This document shows positions 1 to 39,675 of a DNA stretch of 42,195 nt, one piece after another (positions within the stretch are counted from its first letter, which is position 1; each line of letters starts with the position of its first letter). The stretch covers positions 1 to 42,195 of the IMG/VR virus record IMGVR_UViG_3300020187_000070; one strand, 5' to 3'. The notes under the pieces are model-generated. The model did no database searches and was not told the origin of the DNA. It saw only the letters and a list, made by a program, of their open reading frames with translations. This DNA is from a virus. A program made the translations under genes and the position numbers.

Positions 1-606
1 CTGCACGCACACAAGTTAATGCGTAAGACTTGGCAAGGTATGCCTTCTAAGGAAGATATTGGTGGTGATAAATGGAATCAAATAGCAGATCATTGTAATA
101 GTAATTACTTTCACATTGATATGGAGCGTTATACATTAGAGTCTGTTCTAAAGAAAGGAGCTGAGCTAGTTAAACGTAAAGGTATTAAATGCTTAGTTAT
201 TGATCCATTTAATAAGGTTAGAGACGTAGACTGTAAAACAGAAGACGTTAATAGATATACTATGGAATACTTAAGCAAGATTGAAATCTTTGCTAAAAAG
301 TATGATGTACTTGTATTTATTGTAGCGCATCCAACTAAAATGTATAAAGACAAGGATGGTAAGATTGAAGAGCCAACTATGTATAACATTAAAGGTGGTG
401 GTGAATGGTACGATGCTTCTTATCATGGTTTATTAGTTCACAGAGACTACGAAGCTAAGACCGTTAAATGTAAAGTTCTTAAAGTTAAGTTTCAAAACTT
501 AGGTGAAAATGGAGCTGAGTCACATTTTAAATGGGAACCAAGGTCAGGATGCTTTATACCTCATGAACCCTTAGATATATCAACTGAAAAAATGCCTTGG
601 GAATAA
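1..606 (+). CDS. Replicative DNA helicase (T7 gp4/Twinkle/DnaB type), C-terminal part
   Basis: The frame is open from the first base, so this is the 3' end of a gene that begins outside the window; the first Met is at 19. What remains looks like the C-terminal half of a RecA-fold hexameric replicative helicase. A Walker B-like strand (LVIDPFNKV) lies about 60 residues after the first Met, followed by a VFIVAHPTKM strand of the H3 type, and then a glycine-rich segment (GGGEWYDASYHGLLVHRD) resembling the H4/arginine-finger region. The Walker A part and any primase domain would lie upstream of the window. It would unwind the phage replication fork. It heads the visible part of a nucleotide-metabolism operon and is followed without a gap by the next gene (TAA directly followed by ATG). 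The family call is from motifs and context; whether a primase is fused cannot be seen. Confidence 0.8.
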   Translation: MHAHKLMRKTWQGMPSKEDIGGDKWNQIADHCNSNYFHIDMERYTLESVLKKGAELVKRKGIKCLVIDPFNKVRDVDCKTEDVNRYTMEYLSKIEIFAKKYDVLVFIVAHPTKMYKDKDGKIEEPTMYNIKGGGEWYDASYHGLLVHRDYEAKTVKCKVLKVKFQNLGENGAESHFKWEPRSGCFIPHEPLDISTEKMPWE

Positions 607-861
607 ATGGCTAAAAGAAGGTCTCCATGGGATATGGGTGAGTATACTGCAACTAAAGACGAGGTTGAAGCTATGATATGGTGTATAAGAAATAAAATAT
701 ATATCGCACCTGTAGCAGTAAGAGAAGCTAAATGGACTATAGAGATATTAAATAATGGTGTATCAAACACAGATCCTAAAGACTATAAGAAAGTAGATAT
801 ATGGATGAAAATGTATGAGTACTATAAATATTATAAAGATAAGTATGAAAAAAAGATTTAA
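607..861 (+). CDS. Small conserved-looking phage protein, unknown function
   Basis: This is an 84-residue protein starting directly after the helicase stop codon, so it is probably translationally coupled. It is rich in Lys, Tyr, Trp and Met, with a long helical centre (EAMIWCIRNKIYIAPVAVRE) and a Tyr/Lys-rich C-terminus (YEYYKYYKDKYEKKI). No signal peptide, membrane span or catalytic motif is apparent. Its last 17 bases overlap the start of the synthase-like gene. The position between helicase and nucleotide enzymes suggests a replication or nucleotide-related accessory role, but that is only context. I do not recognise the family by function. Confidence 0.75.
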   Translation: MAKRRSPWDMGEYTATKDEVEAMIWCIRNKIYIAPVAVREAKWTIEILNNGVSNTDPKDYKKVDIWMKMYEYYKYYKDKYEKKI

Positions 862-1486
862 TAACGCAAACGAAGCTTATGAAGCTGTGTTAGATGAAAT
901 ATTACAAGAAGGTATAGACTTTGGTGATACTAAAGCTATATTTAACTGTGGTTTTTACATAGACAAACCTTCAGACAAAGCTATAACAAACACTGAGCGT
1001 AGGTGGAATCAAAAATATGCGGCTGCTGAGTGGTCTTGGTATCTGTCTGGTGATCCTAGTGTTGACAAACTAGCTGAACTGTATGGTAAGGTACCACCTA
1101 TATGGGAACGTATGACTGATGAAAATGGTGAAGTTAATTCTAATTACGGTTACCAATGGCAAAGAAGTAACCAATTAAGTTACGTGGTTAATAAACTAAG
1201 AGATAATCCAGATACTAGGCATGCTGCTATAAGTATATACGATGCTAAAGAGCATCCGCAATATGGTAATGACACACCGTGTACTTATGCTATACAGTTT
1301 TCGATTATAGACAAAAAGCTTTGTATGTCTGTCTATATGCGTTCTAATGACATCTGGTACGGTTTCTGTAATGATCAGTATCAATTTGCATCATTGCAAC
1401 AGATGGTTGCAGATATGTTACATATCGAGACGGGTTGGTATTACCACCACGCACACAATATGCACTTATATAAAAATAAACTATAA
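845..1486 (+). CDS. Thymidylate synthase-fold enzyme, possible dCMP hydroxymethylase
   Basis: The 213-residue product has the fold's landmarks: Glu62 in AAEWSWYLSGD (E. coli ThyA Glu58), the IW...YGxQW block near 86-105, NPDTRH at 121-126 (ThyA DPDSRR), catalytic Cys146 in DTPCTYAIQF, the RSND motif at 166-169, and HLY at 207-209. From Cys146 to HLY the spacing equals that of E. coli ThyA. The residue matching ThyA Asn177, which selects dUMP, is Asp177 here (YGFCNDQYQF). T4 dCMP hydroxymethylase has the same Asn-to-Asp change. It also lacks ThyA's phosphate-binding Arg21 loop, has His in place of Arg127, and stops about 50 residues early, so the folate-closing C-terminus is missing. I chose the ATG at 845 because an upstream in-frame ATG at 815 adds ten residues that fit nothing in the family. 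It could instead be a degenerate thymidylate synthase. The fold is confident; the substrate is inferred. Confidence 0.85.
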   Translation: MKKRFNNANEAYEAVLDEILQEGIDFGDTKAIFNCGFYIDKPSDKAITNTERRWNQKYAAAEWSWYLSGDPSVDKLAELYGKVPPIWERMTDENGEVNSNYGYQWQRSNQLSYVVNKLRDNPDTRHAAISIYDAKEHPQYGNDTPCTYAIQFSIIDKKLCMSVYMRSNDIWYGFCNDQYQFASLQQMVADMLHIETGWYYHHAHNMHLYKNKL

Positions 1487-1490
1487 AAAT

Positions 1491-2279
1491 ATGTATTATT
1501 TATACCACATACCAGGTAAAAAAATAGGGGTTACACGTAATCTTAATAAAAGAGTTACCCTTATGCAAGGCTATAAGGAGGGTGAGTATGAAGTTCTTGA
1601 GCAGTCAGAAGATATAGATTATGTATCTAACCGCGAAATAGAGCTTCAACAGTCTTATGGCTATAAGAAAGATAGAACACTTTATAAAAATCTATTCAAA
1701 TTAAATATGAAAATTAATCCAACAGAACAAACAAGTACATTTCCAGTTCCAGTTAATAAGTTAAAAGGACATCTTATGGATAACATAGGATTAAAATGGA
1801 AAACACCACAAGGTTATGATTTTGAAATAACAAAAGATAATGTACCTTGGATAATCAAAAACGCAATTACCTCGATGTATAATGACAATCGAAGCTATAT
1901 TTACAACAAGGCTTTCTATGAAGCCTTTTTTAGTCCAAAAGATACAACCAACTCTACATATCCAGAGAAATTGTACTCTTATCAAGATCAGTTTGAGTTA
2001 ATAAGAGAATGGGCTACTGATAAGGGAATATATAAATCAGGTGATGCTAGAACTCAGTATGTTAAACTTATGGAAGAGGCTGGTGAGCTTGCTCAAGCTA
2101 TATTAAAAAACGACGAGCCTGAAGTAATTGATGCTATTGGCGACATGGTTGTTGTATTAACAAACCTAGCTAAATTAAGAGGCCATAATATAGAAGACTG
2201 TATAAGTAGCGCTTATGATGTTATAAAATCTAGGCAAGGTAAAATGATTAATGGAACATTTGTAAAGCAGACATTATAA
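1491..2279 (+). CDS. GIY-YIG-like domain fused to MazG-type NTP pyrophosphohydrolase
   Basis: The product is 262 residues if translation starts at the ATG at 1491, five bases after the previous stop; the frame is open further upstream but only over the synthase gene. The N-terminus (YYLYHIPGK, then KIGVTRNLNKRV, then a conserved Glu in NREIELQ) looks like a compact GIY-YIG-like domain, though the catalytic set is incomplete. A linker of about 90 residues follows. The C-terminal third is a MazG-like all-alpha NTP pyrophosphatase, with EEAGE at 195-199 and a second acidic motif EVIDAIGD at 211-218; these would bind Mg and hydrolyse (d)NTP to (d)NMP plus pyrophosphate. Context suggests cleaning or tuning dNTP pools, for example removing dCTP to feed the neighbouring synthase-like enzyme. 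The MazG call is strong and the GIY-YIG call moderate. The role of the fusion is unknown. Confidence 0.82.
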   Translation: MYYLYHIPGKKIGVTRNLNKRVTLMQGYKEGEYEVLEQSEDIDYVSNREIELQQSYGYKKDRTLYKNLFKLNMKINPTEQTSTFPVPVNKLKGHLMDNIGLKWKTPQGYDFEITKDNVPWIIKNAITSMYNDNRSYIYNKAFYEAFFSPKDTTNSTYPEKLYSYQDQFELIREWATDKGIYKSGDARTQYVKLMEEAGELAQAILKNDEPEVIDAIGDMVVVLTNLAKLRGHNIEDCISSAYDVIKSRQGKMINGTFVKQTL

Positions 2280-2572
2280 TGAGAATAAAAACAGAAGATA
2301 AGATAGTTCAGAAAGTACTAGCTAAAATGGATCAACGTAGTTTAATAGGTCAAAAAAAGTATGGCGCTACAATGATGCAAGAGATAGAGGGTCAAGAAAA
2401 AGATCTTGATAGGTTTTTAGTTGATGTTCAAGAAGAGTTAATGGATGCTTTATTATATATTGAAGCTGCAAGACGTTGTTTGACTGATGAGATAGAAGAG
2501 GTTATGATTAACCGAATGGATGTTATAGGTCAAAACGGTAACACTGGTAAACATTATGAAGAAAACTTATAA
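2279..2572 (+). CDS. MazG-like (all-alpha NTP pyrophosphohydrolase-like) small protein
   Basis: This 97-residue protein starts in a TAATG overlap with the MazG fusion, so the two are almost certainly co-translated. It has the pattern of small phage pyrophosphohydrolase-like proteins: KMDQRS..GQKKYG near residues 16-29 and then a helix with FLVDVQEELMDALLYIEAARR. The EExxDAxxY stretch resembles half of the metal-binding helix pair of all-alpha NTP pyrophosphatases; the second acidic motif is not clear, so activity may require oligomerisation or be lost. With its neighbour it makes two pyrophosphohydrolase-like genes in a row. T4 gp56 (dCTPase/dUTPase) belongs to the same broad fold class, which is relevant given the synthase-like gene upstream. 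Family membership is moderately sure; the substrate is unknown. Confidence 0.65.
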   Translation: MRIKTEDKIVQKVLAKMDQRSLIGQKKYGATMMQEIEGQEKDLDRFLVDVQEELMDALLYIEAARRCLTDEIEEVMINRMDVIGQNGNTGKHYEENL

Positions 2573-3014
2573 AAGAAAAAGCGGTAAACGTGGTCCAGTA
2601 AGAGCAAGGAAGGTATCGTACGACGGTATCGACTTTGCCTCAGGGCTTGAAAAGTATATGTATATTGCTTTGAGAAAAGCAAGAATAAAAACAAAGTACG
2701 AGGGAGAGACATTTGTTTTATTAAGTGGCTTTCATTTTGAAAACGAAGTTTATGAAAGGCAAGCAAACGGAAAAGGTGATTACAAAAACAGAGGATGCAA
2801 ACGTATTCTACCTATAAAATACACACCTGATTTTATTGGTGATGATTTTATAATTGAAACAAAAGGTAGAGCAAATGAGTCATTTCCTATGCGATGGAAA
2901 ATGTTTAAACTACTAGTATCTAGGCAGTTTCCTGGACATACATTATACAAACCACAAAACCAAAAAGAATGCGACGAGACAGTAAGGTTAATCCTTTCGA
3001 AGCAAAAAGGATAG
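2556..3014 (+). CDS. T7 endonuclease I-like Holliday junction resolvase
   Basis: The 152-residue product matches T7 gp3 (endonuclease I) in motif order. Glu32 sits in SGLEKYMYIAL (T7 has TGLEDKVSKQL), followed by a KY-E segment, then YTPDF with Asp92, then FIIETKG with Glu101 and Lys103. This is the PD-(D/E)xK nuclease core; T7 residues Glu20, Asp55, Glu65 and Lys67 are the equivalents. The enzyme would cut branched DNA and junctions during replication, recombination and host DNA breakdown, and resolve concatemers before packaging. The N-terminal 20 residues are very basic, fitting DNA binding. The start overlaps the previous gene by 17 bases. About 30 residues between the first helix and the YTPDF strand look like an insertion relative to T7. 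Confidence 0.85.
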   Translation: MKKTYKRKSGKRGPVRARKVSYDGIDFASGLEKYMYIALRKARIKTKYEGETFVLLSGFHFENEVYERQANGKGDYKNRGCKRILPIKYTPDFIGDDFIIETKGRANESFPMRWKMFKLLVSRQFPGHTLYKPQNQKECDETVRLILSKQKG

Positions 3015-3139: not shown

Positions 3140-3288
3140 AAGATAACGAAAACGAAACAGGCTGGATAATGGAGTTTGGCTTATACCCAGGAGTACTACT
3201 AGGGTTTAGATCTTATGTAGAAGAAGATTTCTCAATACACGTATTTTACATACCATTTCTTGATATATCATTAAAGGTATTCAAGTAA
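3136..3288 (+). CDS. 50-residue phage protein upstream of nrdB, unknown function
   Basis: The frame starts in an ATGA overlap with the preceding tiny gene and ends in a TAATG overlap with nrdB, which is good evidence of a real, translationally coupled gene. The protein has an acidic N-terminus (MKDNENETGW), then short hydrophobic beta-like stretches (LYPGVLLGF, IHVFYIPFLDISLKVF) and no charged catalytic set. It resembles, from memory, a small conserved protein often seen beside phage ribonucleotide reductase or replication genes. Function is unknown; a small all-beta fold or membrane-peripheral protein is plausible. Confidence 0.7.
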   Translation: MKDNENETGWIMEFGLYPGVLLGFRSYVEEDFSIHVFYIPFLDISLKVFK

Positions 3289-4256
3289 TGGGATTATTTG
3301 ATGAGCGCGTAGCGTACAAGCCGTTTGAATATCCTGAGTATTACACAGAAGGGTGGTTAAAGCAAGCACAGGCATTTTGGTTACATACTGAAATATCAAT
3401 GCAAAGCGATATAAAAGACTGGAACGAAAAACTTACAGAAAAAGAAAAACATCTTGTAGGAAATATTTTACTTGGGTTTGCTCAGACAGAATGTGCAGTG
3501 TCCGATTATTGGACTCAGAAAGTTGTTGGGTGGTTTCCTAAACATGAGATACAGCAAATGGCTATGATGTTTGGTTCGCAAGAAACAATACATGCAGTTG
3601 CTTATAGTTACTTAAATGAAACTTTAAAACTAGAAGACTATGAAGCGTTTTTACATGAACCTGCTACAGCAGATAGATTTGATAATCTCGTATCTTATTC
3701 TGGTAACAGTAGAGCTGGTATTGCTAAGTCTATTGCTGTATTTTCTGCATTTGCCGAAGGAGTTTCTTTATATTCTGCTTTTGCGGTACTTTATTCTTTT
3801 CAGCTTAGAAACCTGCTTAAAGGTATTGGGCAACAAATGAAATGGTCAGTAAGAGATGAATCTTTACATAGCAAAATGGGTTGTAAATTATTCAGACATA
3901 TGTGTGAAGAAGACGATCAACTACTACATTTGTGCAGAGAGGATGTTATAAAAGCTGCTGAAACAATGGTTTCTTTAGAAACAAAGTACATTAACAAAAT
4001 GTTTGAAATGGGTGATATAGAAGGTATATCAGCTAATGATCTAAAACATTTTATAAAAAAGAGAGCAAATGAAAAACTTGTTGAACTTGGTTACGTCGAC
4101 TTGGGAAACTACTTCGCATATGACAATAAAGCGGCGAGTAATCTTGATTGGTTTTATCATCTTACCGGGGGCGTCACTCATACTGATTTCTTCGCTATTA
4201 GGCCAACTGATTATTCAAAGGCTAATGAAGGAGAAGACTTTGAAGATATCTGGTAA
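3288..4256 (+). CDS. nrdB: Class I ribonucleotide reductase beta subunit
   Basis: The 322-residue product is the radical-generating small subunit of class I ribonucleotide reductase. Di-metal ligands are visible in order: Glu68 (AQTECAV), Glu99 and His102 with the radical Tyr106 four residues on (QETIHAVAY), Glu157 (FAEGVSLY), and Glu191 with His194 (RDESLH). The C-terminal tail is acidic and ends FEDIW, the type of tail that docks on the alpha subunit. With NrdA, encoded just downstream, it reduces ribonucleotides to deoxyribonucleotides for phage DNA synthesis. A Glu rather than Asp appears to hold the first ligand position. The start overlaps the previous stop (TAATG). GC content is visibly higher in the conserved core than in the small genes around it. 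Confidence 0.97.
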   Translation: MGLFDERVAYKPFEYPEYYTEGWLKQAQAFWLHTEISMQSDIKDWNEKLTEKEKHLVGNILLGFAQTECAVSDYWTQKVVGWFPKHEIQQMAMMFGSQETIHAVAYSYLNETLKLEDYEAFLHEPATADRFDNLVSYSGNSRAGIAKSIAVFSAFAEGVSLYSAFAVLYSFQLRNLLKGIGQQMKWSVRDESLHSKMGCKLFRHMCEEDDQLLHLCREDVIKAAETMVSLETKYINKMFEMGDIEGISANDLKHFIKKRANEKLVELGYVDLGNYFAYDNKAASNLDWFYHLTGGVTHTDFFAIRPTDYSKANEGEDFEDIW

Positions 4257-4534: not shown

Positions 4535-4721
4535 ATTAGGATATATGGGGACTTCATTTATGATGATGAGTCCTCATTTACTACCCGATAAAGTTGGTAT
4601 GATTACATATGTAATAGCAGGTGCAATATCAATACCTCAAGTATTTGTAGCTAAACAATGGAACTTAGTTGCAGTTAATTTAAACGTAGCAATAGCCTAC
4701 ATAATATTATATTTAACATAA
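4515..4721 (+). CDS. Small membrane protein upstream of nrdA, unknown function
   Basis: Two hydrophobic segments are visible, MITYVIAGAISIPQVFVA and LVAVNLNVAIAYIILYL, after a short basic N-terminus containing ERLSSRLGY. The protein therefore probably crosses the membrane twice. The frame is open back to an ATG at 4443, but that would overlap the upstream gene by 92 bases. I favour the GTG at 4515, with ATG 4545 also possible. The stop overlaps the nrdA ATG (TAATG). Small two-span proteins of this look occur in marine phages beside nucleotide genes as far as I recall, but no function is known to me. It is not an obvious holin, since it is in the early block away from the lysis genes. Confidence 0.6.
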   Translation: MERLSSRLGYMGTSFMMMSPHLLPDKVGMITYVIAGAISIPQVFVAKQWNLVAVNLNVAIAYIILYLT

Positions 4722-6439
4722 TGTGGAACAATGAATGGATCAAAGGAGAAGATTACCCTACGTGGGGTAATACGGACGTATACAAGAAGACTATATCCGG
4801 GGGATATTTATATCACGGAGAAACGCCTAGAGAAGCATACCAAAGAGTCGCTAAAACAGTTGCTCGTAGGTTATATAAGCCTGAAATGGCTGACAAGTTT
4901 TTTGAATACATCTGGAATGGCTGGCTTTGTTTGGCTAGCCCTGTGCTCAGTAACACTGGTACTGACCGCGGTCTTCCTATTAGTTGTTTTGGGATTGATG
5001 TAGCAGATTCAATACAAGATATAGGTAGTAAAAACTTAGAGATGATGCTACTCGCTAAGCACGGCGGTGGAGTTGGTATCGGTATAAATCAAATAAGACC
5101 CGCTGGCGCTAGAATAACAGGTAATGGAACATCAGACGGAGTCGTACCTTTCTGCAAGATATATGACTCAACAATTCTTGCAACTAATCAAGGGAGTGTC
5201 CGTCGTGGAGCTGCCTCAGTTAATATCAACATTGAACATGATGACTTCGAGGAGTGGCTTGAAATCAGGGAACCTAAAGGAGATGTTAACAGACAGTCGC
5301 TTAACCTACATCAGTGCGCAATTGTTGGTGACAAGTTTATGCGTAAGCTTGAACAAGGAGATAAGGGGGCAAGATCTAGATGGAGTAAACTTCTTAGAAA
5401 ACGAAAAGCAACTGGAGAACCGTATATTATGTTTAAAGGGAATGTTAACAAAGCAAATCCAGAAGCATATAAAACAAACGGATTAAAAGTACATATGACT
5501 AACATATGTTCAGAAATAACTTTAACAACAGATGAAAATCACAGTTTTGTTTGCTGTTTATCATCATTAAATTTAGCAAAGTATGAAGAATGGAAAGACA
5601 CAAACCTTATATACGACGCCATATGGTTTCTTGACGGCGTTATGGAGGAGTTTATTCAAAGAGCAAAAGGACTTAGAGGTTTTGAAAACGCCATTCGTTC
5701 TGCTCAAAAAGGACGAGCACTCGGTTTGGGTGTACTCGGATGGCACACGTATCTCCAGGAAAAGAGCGTTCCTTTTGAAGGTTTACTTGCTCAGTTTGAA
5801 ACAAGGAAGATATTTAGCCAAATTAAAATCGAGAGTGAAAGAGCCTCTAGGGATCTTGCTGAAATTTATGGAGAACCTCTTTGGTGTATTGGCACGGGTA
5901 TGCGTAACACTCATCTTAGGGCTATCGCTCCTACTGTCAGTAATAGTAAGCTTAGTGGTAATGTTAGTCCAGGTATTGAGCCGTGGGCAGCAAATGTTTT
6001 TACAGAGCAGAGTGCGAAGGGGACTTTCATTAGGAAGAACCCGACGTTAGTTAAATTATTAAGAAAGCTTAAAATAAACAATAATGAGACGTGGGATAAA
6101 ATATTGGCTGACGGAGGTAGCATACAGGGTATCGATGCTTTGGATAATATTACTGTGGGCCACGACGTTCCAGTTAAAGAAGTTTTTAAAACTTTTAAAG
6201 AGATTAATCAATTAGAATTAGTTAATCAAGCTGGCTTACGCCAACAGTATATAGATCAGTCAGTTAGTTTAAACTTAGCTTTTCCATCTGAGGCTACACC
6301 TAAGTGGTTGAACAAAGTTCACTTTGATGCTTGGAAAAAAGGTGTTAAAACCTTATATTATACACGTACTGAATCTGTATTACGTGGAGATATAGCTCAA
6401 CAAGCGATGAATGAAGATTGCTTGGCTTGCGATGGCTAA
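4721..6439 (+). CDS. nrdA: Class I ribonucleotide reductase alpha (catalytic) subunit
   Basis: The 572-residue product contains the reductase active site: Cys89 in PISCFG and its redox partner in the FVCCLSSLNL segment (Cys278/Cys279), the central Asn261-x-Cys263-x-Glu265 motif (NICSEI) for substrate reduction, a TyrTyr radical-relay pair in LYYTRTES near the end, and a C-terminal Cys pair (CLACDG) that would be reloaded by thioredoxin or glutaredoxin. It is much shorter than E. coli NrdA (761) and lacks the N-terminal ATP-cone, so allosteric shut-off by dATP through that domain should be absent. This is common in viral enzymes and favours high dNTP output. No thioredoxin or glutaredoxin gene is present in the window. 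GC content is raised (near 50 percent locally) through much of 4900-6050 compared with about 25 percent after 6060. Confidence 0.97.
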   Translation: MWNNEWIKGEDYPTWGNTDVYKKTISGGYLYHGETPREAYQRVAKTVARRLYKPEMADKFFEYIWNGWLCLASPVLSNTGTDRGLPISCFGIDVADSIQDIGSKNLEMMLLAKHGGGVGIGINQIRPAGARITGNGTSDGVVPFCKIYDSTILATNQGSVRRGAASVNINIEHDDFEEWLEIREPKGDVNRQSLNLHQCAIVGDKFMRKLEQGDKGARSRWSKLLRKRKATGEPYIMFKGNVNKANPEAYKTNGLKVHMTNICSEITLTTDENHSFVCCLSSLNLAKYEEWKDTNLIYDAIWFLDGVMEEFIQRAKGLRGFENAIRSAQKGRALGLGVLGWHTYLQEKSVPFEGLLAQFETRKIFSQIKIESERASRDLAEIYGEPLWCIGTGMRNTHLRAIAPTVSNSKLSGNVSPGIEPWAANVFTEQSAKGTFIRKNPTLVKLLRKLKINNNETWDKILADGGSIQGIDALDNITVGHDVPVKEVFKTFKEINQLELVNQAGLRQQYIDQSVSLNLAFPSEATPKWLNKVHFDAWKKGVKTLYYTRTESVLRGDIAQQAMNEDCLACDG

Positions 6440-37878: not shown

Positions 37879-38135
37879 AAAACAACAACTATATCCTCTA
37901 GTTTAATGACGTGATAAAAATCTTTATCTATTTCTATTTTGTGACCGGCATGTCTATCGAAAAATATCTTATCATTTTCCTTAACGCCAACTACGTCACT
38001 TCCAATAGAAATTACACTAGCTTCTATATATCTAATATCTTCTCTATGTGATTCAGCAAGAAGTAGACCACCTTTAGTTTTAGTGGTCCCTTCTTTTGTT
38101 TTCTTTATAATTAAATTTCTACCTATTGCTTTCAT
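37875..38135 (-). CDS. groES: Phage co-chaperonin GroES
   Basis: The 86-residue protein has the GroES layout: N-terminal strand MKAIGRNLIIKK, mobile loop with KGGLLLAES at 21-29 (E. coli GGIVLTG), the ASVISIGSD strand, KENDKIFFDRHAGHKIEIDK and C-terminal FYHVIKLEDIVVVL. In the mobile loop the IVL contact triad of E. coli is LLL. It would cap the phage GroEL encoded immediately upstream, or the host's. I start at ATG 38135; a TTG two codons upstream is less likely. The start lies inside the last 17 bases of groEL, so gene order is EL then ES, opposite to bacterial operons. Confidence 0.93.
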   Translation of the reverse strand: MKAIGRNLIIKKTKEGTTKTKGGLLLAESHREDIRYIEASVISIGSDVVGVKENDKIFFDRHAGHKIEIDKDFYHVIKLEDIVVVL

Positions 38136-39675
38136 CTCCAACTCTTAAATTATTAATTACACAATCTGTAGATAATATAGTAGTTGCTACTGAAGCTGCA
38201 TTTCTTAAAGCGCTTTTAGTTACTAGCAGTGGATCTATAATACCAGCTCTAACCATATTCACATCCTTACCCGTAACAACATTTAATCCTCTATTTTTTT
38301 TATCAGGATAAACCAATTCTAAACCAGCATTGGAAAGAATAGTCTCATAAGGTGCTTTTATAGCTTGTAACAAAACTTCTTCACCTTTGCTTTTAGCTTT
38401 TATATATGTTGACGCGTTTAATAAAGCAATACCTCCACCTGGTATTATGCCTTCTTTGATGGCGGCTTTTGTAGCGCAGACAGCGTCTTCAACTCTATCT
38501 GTCTTTTCTTTAAGTTCAATGTCTGAATTCGCTCCAACCTTAACAACTGCAACCTTAGCAGATAAACGTGCAAGTCTAGTTTCAAGTCGTATAACGTTTG
38601 CAGGAAATTTTTCAGTTTCAAGTTGCTCTTTAATTTTCTTAATAAGCTCATTTACTTCTTCTGGCGTTTCTTTTATTTGTATTATAGTATCTTGTTCACC
38701 AGTAACACTTCTAACGCACTCACCTAATTTATCAACTGATATAAGATCCAAGTCATCTCCAAGATCTTCATTTATAACAGTAGCACCTGTTAACATAGAT
38801 AGATCCGTTAAGGTGTCTTTCTTGTTAATACCAAAAGTAGGTGCGTTAATAACATTAACTTTTATGTTTCCTTTAACCTTATTCATTGCTAAAGCTGATA
38901 GAACTGGTTGGTCTATATCAGCAACAATAAGTAAAGACTTCGTGTTTTTAATAACATATTCTAACACAGATTGTATTTGCCTAATACTTTCTATAGGTGA
39001 ATCAACTAACAGCACTAGAGGGTTTTCAAGCACAGCCTCTTTTGTTGATTTATTCGTTACAAAATTAGAATTTGTTAGTCCTTTCTCGTATTGTATTCCA
39101 TCTACTACATCTACATAAGTTTCAGACTCACTTGTTGGCTCCATCATAACCACTCCGGTCTCTCCTACAGATCTAAAAGCGTCTCCAATGACTTTACCCA
39201 AGGTTGGATCATTGTTTGTTGATATAGTGGCCACAGAGTCAATCATATCACCTGTTACCTGTATAGAGTTTTTCTCTAAGTATTTTACAACTTTTTCAAC
39301 AGCACTGTTGATGCCGTTTTTCAAGTCTCTATTATTGTAATCTTTATCAAGCTTGTAAGCTTGTTTAAGTATAGAATGAGCTAACACTGTAGCTGTGGTC
39401 GTTCCATCACCCGCTTCTTTAACAGTTTTTCTAGCTGCTTCTTTTAATAACGTGGCGCCCATGTTTTCTACGGGGTCTAGCAAGACTATAGAATCAGCTA
39501 CGGTCACACCATCTTTAGTAATCACCGGTTTACCACCACCATCTTCTAAGATAACACATTTGCCGCTAGCTCCAAGAGTGGAGCTAACAGCTTTAGTTAG
39601 TTTTTCTATACCTTTAAATACTGTAACTTTAGCATCTTCTCCAAAGTTTAAGTTTTTAACAATTTTGTCTGACAT
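38119..39675 (-). CDS. groEL: Phage chaperonin GroEL
   Basis: The 518-residue chaperonin keeps its ATPase residues: Asp55 (ITKDGVTVAD), Asp90 in GDGTTTATVLA and Asp397 in RVEDAVCATKAAIKEG (E. coli Asp52, Asp87, Asp398), plus GGG near 413. The apical helices that bind substrates and GroES diverge: E. coli GYLSPYF (Tyr199, Tyr203, Phe204) corresponds to GLTNSNF, and the C-terminal GGM repeats are missing. Altered client choice or GroES pairing is expected. As a late gene it most likely folds the phage capsid or other virion proteins. The leader has three TCAAA units and a small palindrome. It is probably a phage copy of an old host gene; no close donor can be named from sequence alone. Confidence 0.96.
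   Translation of the reverse strand: MSDKIVKNLNFGEDAKVTVFKGIEKLTKAVSSTLGASGKCVILEDGGGKPVITKDGVTVADSIVLLDPVENMGATLLKEAARKTVKEAGDGTTTATVLAHSILKQAYKLDKDYNNRDLKNGINSAVEKVVKYLEKNSIQVTGDMIDSVATISTNNDPTLGKVIGDAFRSVGETGVVMMEPTSESETYVDVVDGIQYEKGLTNSNFVTNKSTKEAVLENPLVLLVDSPIESIRQIQSVLEYVIKNTKSLLIVADIDQPVLSALAMNKVKGNIKVNVINAPTFGINKKDTLTDLSMLTGATVINEDLGDDLDLISVDKLGECVRSVTGEQDTIIQIKETPEEVNELIKKIKEQLETEKFPANVIRLETRLARLSAKVAVVKVGANSDIELKEKTDRVEDAVCATKAAIKEGIIPGGGIALLNASTYIKAKSKGEEVLLQAIKAPYETILSNAGLELVYPDKKNRGLNVVTGKDVNMVRAGIIDPLLVTKSALRNAASVATTILSTDCVINNLRVGDESNR

Follow-up and report, generated by a model that had tools for sequence, protein, structure and literature searches.

The window, by which we mean the whole stretch of 42,195 nucleotides analysed here, is a 42 kb piece of a virus record (IMGVR_UViG_3300020187_000070) with kin among the Bacteroidota podoviruses. 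The terminase encoded in it shares 62% identity with that of a Manatee Spring podovirus and 45% with those of Flavobacterium elemoviruses, and the named hosts among the terminase matches listed are Flavobacteriia throughout. Because the related isolates infect Flavobacteriia, three contigs of the same phage group that had been binned into Aliivibrio and Halieaceae MAGs (L105, L107 and L108) are probably mis-binned. The group also keeps phage chaperonin genes, with GroEL at positions 38119–39675 of the window and GroES in relatives.

At its start, the window carries a run of closely packed genes on one strand (Table 1), with operon-like overlaps at 845/861, 2279 and 2556/2572 and with ATG 1491 as the start of the MazG fusion gene. 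The gene order from the primase-helicase to NrdA is common to most of about 80 IMG/VR relatives. The first-pass annotation had placed the synthase-like gene and two MazG-like genes within 845–2572, and the coordinates were borne out, with open reading frames at 845–1486, 1491–2279 and 2279–2572. We refer to the position directly before the MazG fusion gene, which in the window is taken by a gene of the thymidylate synthase (TS) family, as the slot.

Table 1. Genes of the operon in the window, with the evidence for each assignment.
Feature	Position	Strand	Evidence and remarks
Primase-helicase, C-terminal part	19..606	+	phrog_18375/239; record begins inside gene; relatives ~573 aa
84-aa protein, function unknown, directly upstream of slot	607..861	+	synteny in most relatives
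Predicted T4-type dCMP hydroxymethylase (TS family, tail-less, 213 aa)	845..1486	+	PF00303 E=1.2e-30, signature residues, tree, PDB matches
GIY-YIG-like N-terminal domain, middle region and C-terminal MazG; proposed dCTPase	1491..2279	+	PF03819, AlphaFold, Foldseek
Small all-helical protein, 97 aa, function unknown, kept in operon	2279..2572	+	start overlaps MazG stop; motifs
DUF1064 / Holliday-resolvase-like nuclease, same operon	2556..3014	+	PF06356 E=1.5e-7; synteny
NrdB, ribonucleotide reductase small subunit, conserved partner	3288..4256	+	PF00268 E=6.5e-57; synteny
NrdA, ribonucleotide reductase large subunit, conserved partner	4721..6439	+	PF02867 E=1.8e-91; synteny

The product of the slot gene, a Pfam match to the TS family, was aligned with E. 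coli TS, T4 gp42, SPO1 gp29 and phage homologues, and 79 relatives of 67–91% identity were checked at the same positions. An Asp stands at position 177 of E. coli TS (Asp179 of T4 gp42) in the window protein and in 79/79 relatives, and Glu58, Trp80, Tyr94, Arg126, Cys146, Arg166, Ser167, Asp169, His207 and Tyr209 are retained. Given this conservation in all 79 relatives, Asp177 and the key residues are far beyond chance. The marks of a dCMP hydroxymethylase, as derived from the ternary complex of the T4 enzyme (dCH), are a missing C-terminal tail, a Ser94 that precedes Tyr96, and an Asp located three positions ahead of the catalytic Cys (PMC6400193). The window protein carries nearly all published T4 signature residues, among them Asp145, Ser94, Tyr96, Cys148 and Asp179 (T4 numbering), as well as the set of Ser/Thr94, Tyr96, Glu60 and Cys148 that defines a T4-type dCMP hydroxymethylase; the Asp before the Cys (DTPC), where the T4 type has Asp or Glu for water activation, recurs in 79/79 relatives, and the chain stops a few residues past Tyr209, leaving no C-terminal tail. 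At these mark sites (Asp before Cys, Ser94-Tyr96, tail loss) there are zero exceptions among the 79 relatives, and the Leu at −3 from the Cys and the His147 of the TS type are absent from the window protein.

Several substrate contacts differ. The first phosphate Arg (T4 Arg123) is retained, whereas the second (T4 Arg124, TS Arg127) is His in the window protein and His or Gln in 69 and 10 of its relatives, respectively; Gln is also found at this position in SPO1 gp29 and several homologues. The Arg21 position holds Thr, as it does in T4 gp42, and Lys28 and Arg220 of T4 are lost in the alignment. At the ribose site, where the CMP enzyme MilA has Lys133 and Ala176 (PMC5175136), the protein has the deoxy-type pair Arg126 and Ser167 instead. 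The alignment thus agrees with the first-pass annotation on the T4-like Asp at the Asn177 position, on the retention of Cys146, Arg166, Ser167, Asp169, His207 and Tyr209, and on the loss of the Arg21 and Arg127 contacts (to Thr and His) and of the C-terminal segment. The losses of the tail and of Arg21 had been taken there for oddities of this protein; both are also found in T4 dCH (PMC6400193).

In a tree of the TS family (126 rows, column 177 excluded), the window protein fell into a group of 36 rows (SH-aLRT 100) made up of hydroxymethylases such as T4 gp42, SPO1 gp29 and MilA, and every TS-like sequence fell on the opposite side; T4 gp42 and a few others form long branches, and the order within the hydroxymethylase side is unsure. 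Another hydroxymethylase-like family, seen at L570 and about ten near-identical loci, branches on the side of MilA and SPO1; it has the motif KDVPCT, Asp177 and a long C-terminus, with no MazG within 2.5 kb. The alignment and tree proposed earlier as a check place the window protein outside TS, and the contrary idea that Asp might be neutral within the family did not hold, the residue being invariant. PDB matches of the protein included MilA (E 3.8e-20, among the best) and T4 dCH. The best NCBIfam TS model gave 84.8 bits vs. a curated cut-off of 327, and the protein has neither the Asn177 nor the C-terminal tail of a ThyA. Judged by its sequence, the protein should act as a dCMP hydroxymethylase that converts dCMP to 5-hydroxymethyl-dCMP (5hm-dCMP).

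The gene following the slot codes for a protein that matched PF03819 (29 bits, cut-off 22) and also PF01503, and a PF03819 match was found in 22/22 fusion members scanned. Its metal motifs EExxE and ExxD read EEAGE and EVIDAIGD, the first being near-invariant. The N-terminus matched MUG113 (best E 4.6e-4) and T5orf172 (best E 0.002), which we take to be models of the GIY-YIG clan, weakly and in a minority of members. An AlphaFold model (pLDDT 86) starts with a beta-beta-alpha-beta-alpha arrangement and ends in a helical MazG domain, and Foldseek matched it to Sulfolobus MazG, with a TM of 0.81 to target, and further to RS21-C6, to human DCTPP1 and to mouse dCTPase with 5-Me-dCMP (probability 1.00, E 0.009–0.02). 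According to this model, the MazG half shares its fold with dCTP pyrophosphatases, although a fold match is no proof of substrate. We infer dCTP as the substrate from the coupling to Asp177 enzymes described below, since sequence alone cannot show it.

The first-pass annotation had described a synthase beside two MazG-like genes, which stands for the fusion on the evidence of PF03819 and Foldseek but finds no support for a second pyrophosphatase at 2279–2572. The 97-aa product of the latter gene has the conserved motifs R-S-x-x-G-x-x-K-Y-G and Q-E-E-x-M-D, gave no match in Pfam, NCBIfam or the PDB profiles and none to MazG when profiles were compared with hhalign, and was modelled by AlphaFold only with low confidence (pLDDT 63) as two long helices. 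We rejected it as a second MazG on these grounds, and of the two downstream neighbours of the slot gene, only the fusion is demonstrably MazG-like.

The slot does not always hold the same enzyme. IMG/VR record 3300047157_000162 (129.5 kb; L009/L099–L104) contains two related phage genomes in tandem, probably through an assembly join, whose flanking genes are mostly 83–95% identical at the DNA level. In the second phage, the slot holds a TS with tail, His147, Leu143 and Asp177; its gene is frameshifted in this record and intact in others. A search with this slot TS retrieved 80 loci, nearly all within the same operon and with Asp177 in 80/80. We then took a census by reading the gene preceding each MazG gene at loci collected with enzyme and MazG queries, which gave 346 occupants, 230 of them distinct. 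These fall into type A, the window type (125), type B, a TS with tail and His147 (77), and type C, a TS with tail and Tyr/Phe147 (28), and Asp177 is present in 230/230. The ten MazG loci that lacked an occupant either lie at the edge of a contig or have another kind of MazG protein. At loci fetched by the MazG gene alone, with queries that do not contain residue 177, Asp177 was found in 145/145 occupants. The ThyX of MW202828, the closest terminase relative, was dropped as a slot occupant because the replication module of that phage is unrelated.

As a control, we scanned IMG/VR for the pattern DVFLGLP(F/Y) with either Asn or Asp as the next residue and took the first 120 records of each kind. 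Among these matches, which came in scan order and in the case of Asp mostly from one phage group and thus not independently, 0/120 Asn177 TS and 98/119 Asp177 TS had a MazG domain at a distance of no more than 2.5 kb, and 92 of the 98 were the full fusion. Because the Asp cases are not independent, we used the number of changes on the MazG tree as a further check. On this tree (229 sequences, FastTree), the slot must have switched between types A, B and C at least 29 times; if branches without good support are disregarded, at least 16 changes are still needed for type A, with the reservation that recombination inside MazG could inflate the count. The repeated swaps, which never admitted an Asn enzyme, are the strongest evidence for cytosine as the target of the operon. 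A natural Asp177 (GLPFDIGSYG) was also seen, independently of the slot family, in a TS within the T4 td clade of a 171.5 kb isolate record (L560), possibly a separate origin of a dCMP-acting TS.

The engineered exchange of Asn for Asp in TS is a textbook change of specificity. Types B and C retain the C-terminal tail, which TS uses to seal the site for hydride transfer, and fall outside the canonical Asn clade in the tree; isolate relatives of type B reach at most 47% identity. Example proteins of both types exceed the cut-off of NCBI model TIGR03284, so that type B genes (L102:15724–16553, L110–L189) would be annotated as thymidylate synthase. Because TS acquires dCMP methylase activity when Asn177 is mutated to Asp (Liu and Santi 1992; Hardy and Nalivaika 1992, cited in PMC8670742), and by analogy with the Xp12-type phages, types B and C probably make 5-methyl-dCMP. 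CpG or GC depletion, considered as a sign of 5-methylcytosine (5mC), gave no useful difference between types A and B.

Directly shown are the conserved residues, the tree position, the gene arrangement and the swapping in the slot. The route from dCTP via dCMP to hydroxymethyl-dCMP suggested by the first-pass annotation is the best reading, with the side of the tree and the invariant Asp in its favour. We give a probability of roughly 77% to the locus being a module for the dNTP pool through which 5-hydroxymethylcytosine (5hmC) takes the place of cytosine during replication. The MazG half of the fusion would cleave dCTP to dCMP, thereby excluding plain cytosine from the phage DNA and supplying the substrate of the next step. 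In the tail-less Asp177 enzyme, the Cys would then attack C6 of dCMP, and the methylene group of CH2-THF would go to C5; to judge from the residues shown for T4, the Asp three positions before the Cys may activate a water molecule, giving 5hm-dCMP and leaving THF unoxidised. This product would enter DNA by way of a kinase that was not recognised here and may come from either partner, phage or host, and of a polymerase that is probably the host's. In sister phages, the tail-bearing Asp177 TS in the same slot would perform a hydride transfer to yield 5-methyl-dCMP.

Against the hydroxymethylation route stand the facts that no dNMP kinase or dCMP deaminase was recognised and that Arg124, Lys28 and Arg220 of T4 are not kept. 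In 35 related records, which come without completeness estimate, we found neither ThyX nor dUTPase, and likewise no carbamoyltransferase, dCMP deaminase or glycosyltransferase of the GT1 or GT2 kind; apart from two exceptions, both explained, each record has a single TS-family gene. One of these phages (G031, 71.5 kb; L066, L096–L098, L067) has the operon at both ends, as expected if the genome is complete, circular or permuted, and about 61–68 kb long; its annotation includes ligase, ERF, exonuclease, sigma factor and primase-helicase, and no DNA polymerase or T4 gp1-like dNMP kinase was recognised in it. Therefore, the host polymerase and some kinase would have to handle the modified nucleotide. 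We rejected the addition of a sugar or carbamoyl group after replication because no such family was found in the 35 records; the 5hmC is therefore probably left bare, and the host would have to tolerate it in that form.

The slot enzyme could also be a divergent thymidylate synthase that converts dUMP to dTMP and provides more T for a phage with AT-rich DNA, with Asp177 being incidental. It belongs to the same Pfam family, and its gene adjoins ribonucleotide reductase genes, which is frequent for phage TS. We nevertheless regard this as very improbable in view of Asp177 in 230/230 occupants of three types, the MazG neighbour in 0/120 Asn177 TS among the matches listed, the tree position outside TS, the scores far under the NCBIfam TS cut-offs, and the loss of the tail, the Leu at −3 and His147 together. 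Even less credit is due to a MilA-type hydroxymethylase of CMP or ribonucleotides serving RNA or small molecules, because Lys133 and Ala176 are replaced by the deoxy-type Arg and Ser and the gene sits in a replication operon, even though MilA is among the best PDB matches (E 3.8e-20).

That type A is itself a dCMP methylase, producing 5-methyl-dCMP and a 5mC genome in the manner known from Xp12 and proposed here for the other two types, is improbable in a lesser degree. Asp177 alone confers dCMP specificity, TS N177D methylates dCMP according to the account in PMC8670742, and the fact that type A is swapped with the tail-bearing types points to a similar role; however, type A has no tail to position the folate for hydride transfer and carries the water-activating pair Asp145/Ser94 of the hydroxymethylases. 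Finally, the hydroxymethylase assignment may be right with the MazG fusion being no dCTPase but an NTP pyrophosphatase for house-cleaning in general. Comparable MazG domains are present in Streptococcus, Staphylococcus and Paenibacillus phages, for which we know of no cytosine-modification pathway, and this keeps some chance for the idea, but the strict coupling to Asp177 enzymes over three types makes it unlikely.

Extending the 5hmC reading from the window to the phage group, we consider it rather probable that one fixed GIY-YIG-MazG gene of the dCTPase type is combined with three interchangeable Asp177 lineages, a T4-type hydroxymethylase (5hmC) and two N177D-like TS (5mC), that have been swapped many times in marine Bacteroidota phages, so that sister phages would switch between two modified bases, probably to dodge modification-dependent restriction. 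The exchange between sister phages of quite different enzymes that appear to act on dCMP suggests altered cytosine in many marine phages. The Asn-to-Asp switch appears to have occurred in nature at scale, with at least 105 distinct tail-bearing genes currently annotated as thymidylate synthase. If true, cytosine would be fully modified in many marine Bacteroidota phages, affecting restriction, CRISPR escape and the behaviour of their DNA in sequencing and cloning. Two chemistries in one slot make selection for 5hmC vs. 5mC directly testable, and likewise which features of the TS fold decide between water and hydride.

Compared to known systems, the window protein resembles T4 gp42 in Asp177/179, Asp145, Ser94, Tyr96, Cys148 and the missing tail, but shares only about 30% identity with it and belongs to a family with His/Gln in place of Arg124. 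Both phages pair the enzyme with an all-alpha pyrophosphatase, which in T4 is the dCTPase gp56 (a match to PF08761, dUTPase_2) and in the window a GIY-YIG-MazG fusion; unlike in T4, no glucosyltransferase or gp1-like kinase was recognised in the window group. The closest isolate homologue is that of Bacteroides phage BF486P2 (L082), with 43% identity over the full length and the same signature residues; genes of this type are annotated as deoxycytidylate 5-hydroxymethyltransferase. Its operon differs in having a dUTPase and a second hydroxymethylase nearby and no GIY-YIG-MazG; the dUTPase gene lies between the two hydroxymethylase genes, the first of which codes for Leu in place of the catalytic Glu60.

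In phage Xp12, 5mC replaces 100% of the cytosine (PMC7653180, PMC9206674), and in AXL1, whose DNA is restriction-resistant, TS adjoins a nucleotide pyrophosphohydrolase (PMC9206674). We made the comparison through the Xp12 genus-mate DoCa6 (Bosavirus, Xanthomonas phage), which has a tail-bearing Asp177 TS directly beside a PRA-PH/MazG gene and also a dCMP deaminase, and is therefore comparable to types B and C rather than to the window protein. The tie of Asp177 and PF01503 to modified cytosine is already known from MetaGPA, which found the Asp177 TS domain with co-occurring PF01503 in modified-cytosine contigs (PMC8670742); the window MazG matches the same family. Those contigs often carry a carbamoyltransferase, unlike the 35 records here, and slot swapping is a feature of the present phages that does not appear in the passages of the MetaGPA report consulted here (PMC8670742). 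The window enzyme extends the T4 kind of hydroxymethylase to phages for which open-access papers gave no earlier report. By the same measure, three features are new: a slot whose enzymes are interchangeable, the large number of natural Asp177 TS found next to a MazG, and the fusion of GIY-YIG with MazG.
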